DNA from: Methanosarcina spelaei
GTDB lineage: Archaea; Halobacteriota; Methanosarcinia; Methanosarcinales; Methanosarcinaceae
Direction of reading: 5' to 3'
NCBI RefSeq assembly: GCF_002287235.1
Contig: NZ_LMVP01000301.1
Span: forward strand, 1 to 35,466
Length of the DNA stretch: 35,466 nucleotides
This document shows positions 24,929 through 35,466 of the stretch, in pieces. Made by a program: the position numbers and the translations under genes. A model generated the notes under the pieces. It was not told where the DNA came from, did not search any database, and saw only the letters and a list, made by a program, of their open reading frames with translations. Within the stretch, counting starts at the first letter, position 1, and the number at the start of each line of letters is the position of its first letter.

Positions 24929-25052
24929 TCTTAATAGTGCATTAACTTAAAAGCGCATCCCGCCTTTAATGGATAATAGCGGACAAATTGGGAAATAAAT
25001 TATATATCTTTGTACATCCGGACTATCAATTGAGGAGAAGGGAGTATGATTT

Positions 25053-25516
25053 ATGGGAATAAGGAGACAAATAATTTATCCACTTATATTTGTTGCTTTT
25101 TTATTAATAATTGCAGTAGCAATTCCGGGGCAACATCCGTTCCTGAAGGTAAAGTGAAACCTGTGGACATTTCGGAGGGTTTACAGATGCCGTTGATGTC
25201 GTTGGCAATTACGCTTACATTGGACAAGGACAGGATCTTGTGATACTGGATATTGCCAATCCTTCTTCACCTGTCTCAGTGGGTAAGATTATGACAAAAA
25301 ACTTAATATCTGGAGTAAAAATTTCCGGCAATTATGCCTATGTAGCTAATAGTATTTTGGGTCTTGTGATTATTGATATAAGCAACCCTTCTTGAGCAGA
25401 AAAAAGAGACACGTACTCCTTCAAAAGAAAGCAAAAAAACTCCAGGATTTGAACTAATTTATGGGGTTGTTAGTTTGCTAACTATATTCTACATAAAAGG
25501 AAGTAACAAAAGGTAG
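25053..25516 (+). pseudogene. Decayed LVIVD-repeat surface protein with PGF-CTERM tail
   Basis: Pieces of one exported protein lie in successive frames. Frame a: start ATG 25053, signal peptide MGIRRQIIYPLIFVAFLLII. Frame b (about 25110-25172): SGATSVPEGKVKPVDISEG. Frame c (about 25170-25395): GFTDAVDVVGNYAYIG, LVILDIANPSSPVSVG, SGNYAYVANS, LGLVIIDISNPS, ending in TGA; these are LVIVD propeller repeats. A last frame (about 25397-25516) has KESKKTPGFELIYGVVSLL and a basic end, a PGF-CTERM sorting tail. At least two frameshifts and a large internal deletion (only two repeats remain) make it non-functional. An intact ATG with GGAG at 25046 exists but leads into the wrong frame. It was once a lipid-anchored surface protein. 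Confidence 0.8.
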
Positions 25517-31014: not shown

Positions 31015-32274
31015 GTGAAATCTAAGATTATGAACTATTTTAATGCATCAAAAGAAGAATTTTCAGACTGGAAATGGCAGTACAGGCATAGAATTGAGAC
31101 TGTAGAAGAACTTGAAAAACTGATTGAGTTATCAGAGGCCAAGAAAGAAGACATAAAAAAAGCTCTTGAAGTTTTTCCCATGGCGATATCTCCTTATTAT
31201 GCTTCTCTTATCGATTCGAAAGATCATAACTGTCCTATCCGAATTCAGGCTGTACCCAGTTCAGCCGAACTTAAAAAATCCTCCTGGGAACTCGAAGATC
31301 CCCTATGCGAGGATAAGGATTCTCCTTCTGAAGAGAGCTGTATAACCCATAGATATCCTGACAGGGTGCTTTTCCTCATTTCAAACCGCTGTGGAATGTA
31401 TTGCAGGCACTGTACCCGCAAGCGAAGAGTTGGAAACAGAGAGTACGACTACCCTGAAAAGGCAATCCGAGAAGGGATCGAGTATATCAGAGAACATTCT
31501 GAAATAAGGGATGTCCTGCTTTCGGGAGGAGATGCCCTGCTCGTTTCCGATGAAAAGTTAGACTGGCTCCTGGGGGAGCTCTTTGACACTCCTCACGTGG
31601 AAATAGTAAGGTTAGGTTCAAGGGTTCCTGTAACCCTCCCTCAGCGCATAACTCCTGAATTATGTGAAATTCTTGAAAAATATCCTTCAGTCTGGCTCAA
31701 TACCCATTTTAATCACCCATAAGAGATTACCCCAGAAGCTAAAAAGGCAATGAGAATGCTAGCAAAAGCCGGAGTTCCTCTTGGCAACCAGTCTGTACTC
31801 CTCAGGGGAGTAAATGATTGCCCGACGATAATTAAAAAACTCTGCCACGAACTCCTGAAGATAAAAACAAGGCCCTATTATCTCTATCAGTGCGACCTTT
31901 CCTTTGGGCTGGAGCATTTCAGAACATCAGTTGCAAGAGGAATAGAGATAATTGAGATGCTTAGAGGACACACATCAGGTCTTGCAGTTCCGACTTTTGT
32001 TGTTGACGCTCCCGGAGGGGGAGGTAAAATTCCTGTAGGTCCGAATTACCTGATTTCAAGCTCGAATACAGGGACTATCCTTAGAAATTATGAAGGTGTG
32101 ATTTGTATGTACCCCGAACCTGCAGTTTATTCTTGGAAGTGCCAACAAACGTGTTCGATCTGCGATAATCATCCAAGGCTTAAAAGTGGTACTGGCATTG
32201 CAAAACTATATGACAAAGAAAATGACATTATAGCTCTCGAACCCGAAAGTCTGGAAAGAAAACAACGTTTCTAA
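31015..32274 (+). pseudogene. ablA: Lysine 2,3-aminomutase, interrupted by an in-frame TAA
   Basis: The frame codes a full radical-SAM lysine 2,3-aminomutase of 419 residues, which makes beta-lysine for the osmolyte N-epsilon-acetyl-beta-lysine. The SAM cluster motif CGMYCRHC gives C126, C130 and C133. The PLP lysine in PGGGGKIP is K338 by continuous numbering (K337 in the Clostridium enzyme). Zn-type Cys at the C-terminus (CQQTCSIC) are present. However, codon 236 (31720-31722) is TAA within HFNHP[12 protein letters not shown], where a Lys is expected (HPKEITPEA). One A-to-T change explains it. The N-terminal part would lack the PLP site. Methanosarcina reads TAG, not TAA, as pyrrolysine, so readthrough is not expected. 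Start: GTG 31015 with GAGG before it (ATG at 31013 runs into TGA). Confidence 0.9.
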
Positions 32275-32348
32275 AGAAAGAGTAGAGGAAATAAGCCCGT
32301 AAAATCTCCTCAAGTAAAAAAGCTTTAAAAACATAAGGAGGAAATAAC

Positions 32349-33317
32349 ACGGAAAAAAAAATCCCCTTTACTCTTGAAGTTAAAGAAGAACTAACAGGAT
32401 ACTGGAAAAAAATAGATCTGAGTATTGACGGATCAAGAGCTGAGCTTATAATTGATTACTACAACAGTAGAATAAAAATTATAAACTTTACTGGAAATTT
32501 TGAAAATATTTCAGGAATTCTCCAAATCGTCGCTGAAATAGTAAAAGTTGGAAAGATAATCGTATATGCATCTCTAGAAAATATAAAAGAGCTTGAGACC
32601 TGTGGATATATAGAGGAAGGAATTATTAGCGGATACTATGCAGGAAAAAAAGACTGCCATATTTTATCAAGTTACCTTGAAAGTTCCAGAGGAGTTTCTT
32701 CTAACAAAGAGAAAGAAGACCAGATAACTAAAAACTGTCTTACAAAAGTGGGAATTGCCCGAAGAAAACCGAATAAACAAGATGATCACCGAAAAAAAGA
32801 GAGCATAGGAATACGAAAAGAGGGTATAGGGTTTCCAAAAGAATACAGTATCAAACCTGCAGTTCAGGCTGATGCCTCATTAATGGCAATGCTTTACAGG
32901 CAGGAGTTTAAGTTTTATCCTGCTCCTTTGCACATGGAAAGTTATCTTCTAAAAACTATGGACTCCAATGTTCTTTATCTTCTTGCAGAAAAGCAAGGAA
33001 AAATCTTGAGTCTTGCTTCGGCAGAAATGGATCCAATAAACAAGTGTGCTGAAGTAACCGATTGCCTGACAATTTCTTCCGAGAGGGGAAGAGGATTGAT
33101 GAAAGAGCTCATCAAAGCCCTGGAAAAGGAACTTTCAAATAGAGGTTTCAGAAGCTCCTATACTCTTTGCAGGGCTTCATCTTCAGGAATAAACTCAGCT
33201 TTTGCTTCTCTTGGCTATGCTTACACAGGCCGGCTAATTAACAACTGTAAGATTGGAAACGGGTTTGAAGACATGAATATCTGGTGCAAAATGCTTAAAG
33301 AGAACAGGTTAGAATAA
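32349..33317 (+). pseudogene. ablB: Beta-lysine N6-acetyltransferase with ACG in place of the start codon
   Basis: The frame from 32349 to 33317 is open for 322 codons and ends with a GNAT acetyltransferase domain (about 165-318), with acetyl-CoA loop EVTDCLTISSERGRGLMKEL. It makes N-epsilon-acetyl-beta-lysine from beta-lysine. An ideal ribosome site AAGGAGG (32335-32341) lies seven bases before ACG (32349), while the frame has no ATG, GTG or TTG there. The first conventional start in frame is GTG 32748, after half the protein. A T-to-C change in the start codon is the simplest reading. A Lys-rich linker of about 50 residues lies before the GNAT domain. It starts 74 bases after ablA and belongs to the same operon. 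Rare ACG initiation could keep low expression. Confidence 0.85.
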
Positions 33318-34523: not shown

Positions 34524-35466
34524 ATGGTAATTATAAATCTTACTCTTAATAACTTATCGGAACTCCCTGCTCTCTCATACCTTTTTGATAGTTATAGCAA
34601 TGATTACGAATATACCACAAGAGGAATTTTTCGTAGAAAAATTCCTCCAGCCTGCCCTATTTGCAGTGCTCCTATGGTTCATAACGGCTATAATCTATAC
34701 ATCAAAAAAGGTCTTGGAAAAATCAGCATTGGTCGATACAAATGCCAAAATTGTGGTAGTACAGACGAAGAAGATCATAGTTTTTGGGAAGGTCTGAAAA
34801 CTTTACTTTTTGATTCATTCAATAATTTTTTCCAGGTGCTCAGATACCATAAAGTTTCTTATGATGGAATTTCTGATATAATGAGCTTCATATTTCCAAG
34901 ATCAAGAAGCACTATTTTTAGAACATTCAACAAAGAAATGGAACAGGAAAATGTTCCAATTTTAGAAAATGTACATATGGTGCACTATGACGAACAGCAT
35001 CCAAAAGAGGGACGTTGTCAGAAATACCGTTTAACATTACTGGATGCAAAAACTCAAAGAACAATAGCAGATGAACTTTTTGAGGATAAAAGTTCAGAAA
35101 CCATCAAAACGTTTCTACGAAAAAATCTAGATACATCAGAACCTGTGTTTATTGTTACGGATTTTGATAAGAGATACCCAGATATTTTAAAGGAAGTTTT
35201 TGGGGATAAGTTAGTGCATCAATACTGTTTGATGCACTTAAACAAGCTTATAGTTAGCGATTTTCCGAAGAAAACAACAATTGAACAGGAACTATTAAAA
35301 TACAGGTTATTGAATATATTTTACAATCGTGAAAATGAGATTAAATTCCTGGAAAAAATTCTATCTGAAGAACTTAACGTAATTATGAATGAAGAAAAGC
35401 ATCAAGAATGGAGTATAAAGGCAAAAAAGGAATTTAACCGATTTAGATATAAATTGAAGCTAGAAA
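34524..35466 (+). mobile_element. Insertion sequence: DDE-type transposase, truncated by the window end
   Basis: The frame opens at ATG 34524 (MVINLTLNNLSELPALSYLF) and stays open to the last base, at least 314 residues. A zinc ribbon is at about 43-75 (CPICSAPM ... RYKCQNCGS). DDE-type candidates are VHYDEQH (about 152-158) and FIVTDFDKRYPDIL (about 208-221), followed by HQYCLMHLNKL, a C-x2-H pattern seen in ISL3/MULE-like transposases. I cannot assign the IS family with certainty. No ribosome site is obvious. A 16-bp inverted repeat precedes it. The 70-codon frame at 34585 on the same strand is a shadow. Confidence 0.8.

Follow-up and report, generated by a model that had tools for sequence, protein, structure and literature searches.

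A probable ACG start codon of ablB, shared with other Methanosarcina

Within a 35,466-nucleotide stretch of DNA (the window) from a Methanosarcina draft assembly (5.09 Mb in 559 contigs), the frame of ablB, a salt-stress gene of methane-producing archaea, opens at an ACG at position 32349. Comparison with related genomes makes it likely, in our judgment, that this ACG is the genuine ablB start codon and that codons of its kind serve across the genus; it is very probably a real but weak start driven by its Shine-Dalgarno (SD) sequence, and it looks old and preserved, not freshly mutated. The features on which this reading depends are as follows.

32334..32336, plus strand: TAA in frame with ablB, closing its frame on the 5' side and overlapping the SD region, from the sequence
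32335..32341, plus strand: SD of ablB, AAGGAGG, read directly
32349..32351, plus strand: ACG, predicted start codon of ablB, from homologous codons in relatives
32349..33317, plus strand: ablB, beta-lysine N-acetyltransferase (GNAT), 322 codons plus stop, from TIGR03827 and orthologue identity

The stretch 5' of the ACG reads ATAAGGAGGAAATAAC, and the codons after it are GAA AAA AAA ATC CCC. As an earlier note on this DNA had described, AAGGAGG stands seven bases upstream of the ACG (spacer AAATAAC), the frame is open from there for 322 codons (32349–33314, with the stop at 33315–33317), and no other start is nearby: the first in-frame ATG, GTG, or TTG downstream is a GTG at 32748, codon 134, 133 codons beyond the ACG. 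Upstream, the frame is closed five codons 5' of the ACG by the TAA, which is similarly positioned in most Methanosarcina relatives (TAAGGAGG). Directly upstream of ablB and on the same plus strand lies ablA, the neighbor expected of a gene for AblB. An open reading frame downstream of ablB (34524–35466) runs past the end of the window and is transposase-like by eye.

The ablB product is AblB, a predicted beta-lysine N-acetyltransferase, by its match to TIGR03827 (328.5 bits against a cut-off of 205.1; E 3.1e-98), which spans positions 3–266 of the 266-position model. It is 62–78% identical to Methanosarcina orthologues. The profile sets in at residue 30–32, before residue 45, which is a methionine in most relatives. 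A structure model of moderate confidence (mean pLDDT 65.6) contains four predicted strands at approximately residues 8–49, a block with pLDDT of ~70–87, and its structural match is an ordinary GNAT. No second copy of ablA or ablB was found in the source genome.

Among 31 Methanosarcina genomes, 13 carry ablB and the other 18 lack a detectable ablA/ablB pair. At the homologous start position the 13 genes read ACG in five genomes, GCG in five, and ATG in three:

ACG: the window, G001, G007, G009, G021
GCG: G002, G008, G010, G011, G024
ATG: G003, G005, G030, the M. barkeri-like genomes

Thus, 9 of the 12 other Methanosarcina ablB genes have ACG or GCG, at equal distance from the SD, and GGAG of the SD is kept in 13/13 sequences. 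The pattern is that of a conserved non-AUG start, with a codon other than ATG, GTG, or TTG in several species and an SD conserved at a nearly fixed distance. It favors what the earlier note gave as its alternative, namely that ACG is used as a start; the expectation of ATG, from which that note set out, holds against the M. barkeri-like genomes only and fails against most relatives, which have ACG or GCG. We take G001 to be M. acetivorans C2A. The pyrrolysyl-tRNA synthetase (PylRS) catalytic domain of G009 is identical in 239/239 residues to PDB 2q7e, the M. mazei protein, and we accordingly assume that G009 is M. mazei. The osmolyte pathway has been described in M. mazei (PMC12776343). In the sister genus g5 (UBA9310-like), ATC occupies the ablB start in 4/4 genomes, behind GAGGAGG. 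Elsewhere in the family, the AblB of other genera begins at a point corresponding to approximately residue 21 in Methanosarcina, most often with TTG and in some cases with GTG or ATG. Judged from these alignments, a weak ablB start is common across the family, and ATG is the minority form.

The codons immediately after the putative start evolve as coding sequence. Between genomes with NCG or ATC, dN/dS is 0.12–0.24 over residues 2–44 and 0.17–0.28 over the remainder of ablB; these first codons are under protein-level purifying selection like the rest of the gene, which is indirect evidence that they are translated. From the upstream in-frame stop to residue 23, Methanosarcina ablB contains no ATG, GTG, or TTG, apart from the three ATG genomes and the metagenome-assembled genome (MAG) G002, where the frame is open further upstream and holds ATGs. 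Initiation at NCG, or at AUC in g5, would be the simplest account of this arrangement. Over residues 45 onward, dN/dS between the window and the M. barkeri-like genomes is 0.31–0.38, slightly above the 0.23–0.28 within the M. barkeri-like group.

The NCG itself also looks constrained. Of the 33 ablB positions that can be C or T without a change of amino acid, and whose amino acid all ten NCG genomes share, only 2 have C in all ten, and G is kept in all ten at 1 of 21 positions; the corresponding values for ablA, which cover nine of the ten genomes, are 8/74 and 4/43. By this rough test, keeping both C and G by drift alone would be unusual, given an NCG ancestor of all ten. A single C-to-T change would yield ATG or GTG, and ATG at this position is seen, among these genomes, only in the M. 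barkeri-like group. These observations hint that a canonical start on ablB is not favored.

We propose that the strong SD, seven bases upstream, would position the small ribosomal subunit at the ACG, where the initiator Met-tRNA (anticodon CAU) would accept the near-cognate codon and presumably insert methionine. ACG differs from AUG at the middle base only, a C-A mismatch; GCG would combine this with a change at the first base, which GUG shows to be tolerated, and the AUC of g5 would place the mismatch at base 3. Such a codon should initiate weakly. That codons of this sort persist suggests that selection tolerates or favors a level of AblB below that of AblA. A precedent exists in Streptomyces, where sigR starts with GTC in 32 of 34 species and GTT in 2, and where the start is limited by IF3 so that the partner product is in excess (PMC5472188). 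Like ablB, sigR combines a conserved non-canonical start with a strong SD (AGGAGGTG in sigR), and its operon yields its two products at unequal levels. By this analogy AblB may be made below AblA, and the low output might carry some benefit. The two cases differ in that sigR is bacterial, uses different codons, and is established by experiment, whereas the ablB start is supported by comparison; the fidelity factor is IF3 for sigR and aIF1, together with aIF1A and aIF2, in archaea. The infC gene of bacteria has a conserved AUU start that is held against change to AUG. This AUH-type start resembles the ATC of g5 ablB, although the infC product is itself the fidelity factor and autoregulates, and AblB is a metabolic enzyme.

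A survey of 1.2 Mb of one relative (G008) yielded two further genes with genus-wide rare starts. The ksgA/Dim1 gene (L165–L194; source genome G000:C85:5325) has CTG in 28 of 30 Methanosarcina genomes and TTG in the other 2, never ATG or GTG; the CTG follows a strong SD (caggaggtttcagcc CTG; AGGAGG), and in g5 the start is TTG. The second gene, which encodes GT2 and LPG-synthase domains (L113–L141; source genome G000:C539:6669), has a predicted start of ATA in 16 genomes and ATT in 13, codons that likewise recall infC, and ATG, GTG, or TTG in 0/29 Methanosarcina genomes. The ksgA case is suggestive because, in Haloferax volcanii and E. coli, the proteins that increase when KsgA is lost are enriched for non-AUG starts (PMC7897474), and in its logic the ksgA CTG is nearer to infC than ablB is. 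By analogy with infC, one could imagine that a small set of Methanosarcina genes with near-cognate starts (ablB, ksgA, the GT2/LPG-synthase gene, and perhaps some ten per genome) forms a regulatory class defined by initiation fidelity, in which the ksgA CUG would close an autoregulatory loop; we regard this idea as speculative and rather doubtful. In a PfpI/DJ-1-like gene (L195–L221, with L202 left out of the counts), 21 genomes start with ATG, two each with CTG and TTG, and one with ATA; as this gene is mostly ATG, rare starts evidently also arise sporadically.

The archaeal start codons named in a review of initiation are AUG, GUG, and UUG (PMC7531240). Ribosome profiling of M. mazei assigns ATG to 79% of longer genes, and TTG and GTG (~20% each) and CTG (5%) to unannotated small open reading frames; ablB is unnamed in the main text, and the passages searched contain no ACG or GCG start (PMC11456600). 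A search of mainly open-access literature found no report of the rare starts of ablB, ksgA, or the GT2 gene. Conserved ACG and GCG starts across a genus, in a gene whose osmolyte pathway is well studied, would, if borne out, widen the archaeal set, and gene callers would be truncating AblB. As genetic tools exist for both M. mazei and M. acetivorans, the gene would then be a ready model for how the archaeal ribosome controls the stringency of start-codon selection.

The earlier note had read the ACG differently, as one of two separate single-base lesions that signal relaxed selection on the osmolyte pathway, the other being a stop in ablA:

31015..32274, plus strand: ablA, lysine 2,3-aminomutase, with one internal stop; 92–93% identity to M. 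barkeri-like orthologues
31720..31722, plus strand: TAA within the ablA frame, where 19/19 relative sequences have a Lys codon (AAA/AAG)

The ablA stop itself is real and separate. The TAA, codon 236 counted from GTG 31015, is unique to the source genome, and the M. barkeri-like orthologues lack an internal stop; AblA is probably cut short in the source strain. The stop could reflect pathway loss or a base error, and the pathway may be inactive there because of this stop, not because of the ACG. The ablB lesion is not supported by the comparison with relatives that the note had proposed, since the ACG recurs in genomes including M. mazei and ATG occurs only in the three M. barkeri-like genomes. 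Still, these three are the nearest relatives of the window, so that parsimony scarcely distinguishes an independent ATG-to-ACG change in the window from an older ACG that was kept, and mid-tree support in the ablB tree is too low to choose between retention and a second origin. A mutation in the source strain during decay of the pathway, matching the relatives by coincidence, would also sit well with the ablA TAA and with the frequency of loss in the genus (18/31 genomes without detectable ablB). It would have to have produced exactly the codon found in M. mazei, M. acetivorans, and others, in a frame otherwise open for 322 codons, and we consider it improbable. Relaxed selection, moreover, is not supported: the window branch has 17 nonsynonymous to 3 synonymous changes in ablB and 12 to 7 in ablA, against 8 to 2 and 3 to 2 on the sister stem, and an excess of amino-acid changes was seen in neither gene, in a comparison of low power. 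A recent loss would leave no such signal, so its absence is compatible with one, and if ablA is dead, constraint on ablB will have lapsed in the source strain. The marks of a start-loss pseudogene, canonical starts in relatives and relaxed selection, are nevertheless not those of ablB, and the ACG is, by these comparisons, not evidence of a broken pathway. A base error in the assembly is harder still to credit: the assembly is a draft in 559 contigs and the sister genomes have ATG, but the error must have hit the start codon and yielded precisely the codon of the relatives, while, of the other genes aligned in the window, almost every one is intact. Against G003, ~25 of these lack stops, with a repeat-like frame (24937–25513) as the sole exception; that frame matches a repetitive gene of G003 and has stops and a frame change. 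In MAG G002, ablA (L027, L028) matches in two frames, and this copy may be broken or misassembled.

Two further explanations would dispense with a near-cognate start, and both seem to us very improbable. C-to-U editing of the mRNA would turn ACG into AUG and GCG into GUG, and the second base is indeed C in 10/10 NCG genomes, each of which would become AUG or GUG. Plastids provide a parallel, with non-AUG start genes and a genomic ACG that is edited to AUG at the start codon (PMC9845219). Editing fails, however, on the AUC of g5, the AUA and AUU of the GT2 gene, and the CUG of ksgA; we rejected it as a general answer since the g5 ATC would not become canonical. Such editing is, to our knowledge, not known in methanogens. 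Alternatively, translation might begin elsewhere, at Met45 or at a start further upstream, with a subsequent frameshift. Met45 is the only widely conserved internal methionine candidate of AblB, and annotation pipelines would tend to pick it, but the window has Ile45 and no canonical start before codon 134. A start there, which we rejected, would also remove the first three of the four predicted strands, and it sits poorly with protein-level selection on the 5' codons and with the onset of the family domain at residue 30–32. The frameshift variant was dropped as well, because no upstream start in either of the other two frames of the window runs into the ACG. Initiation at the ACG itself thus remains our preferred reading. 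A conserved hairpin at the start was rejected, its energy being only −2.5 kcal/mol with no covarying pair, and a search of the ablB start region for Rfam families returned none. The SD can pair weakly with a downstream CCCTT (32335–32381), enclosing the ablB start, and this pairing is kept in most sequences.
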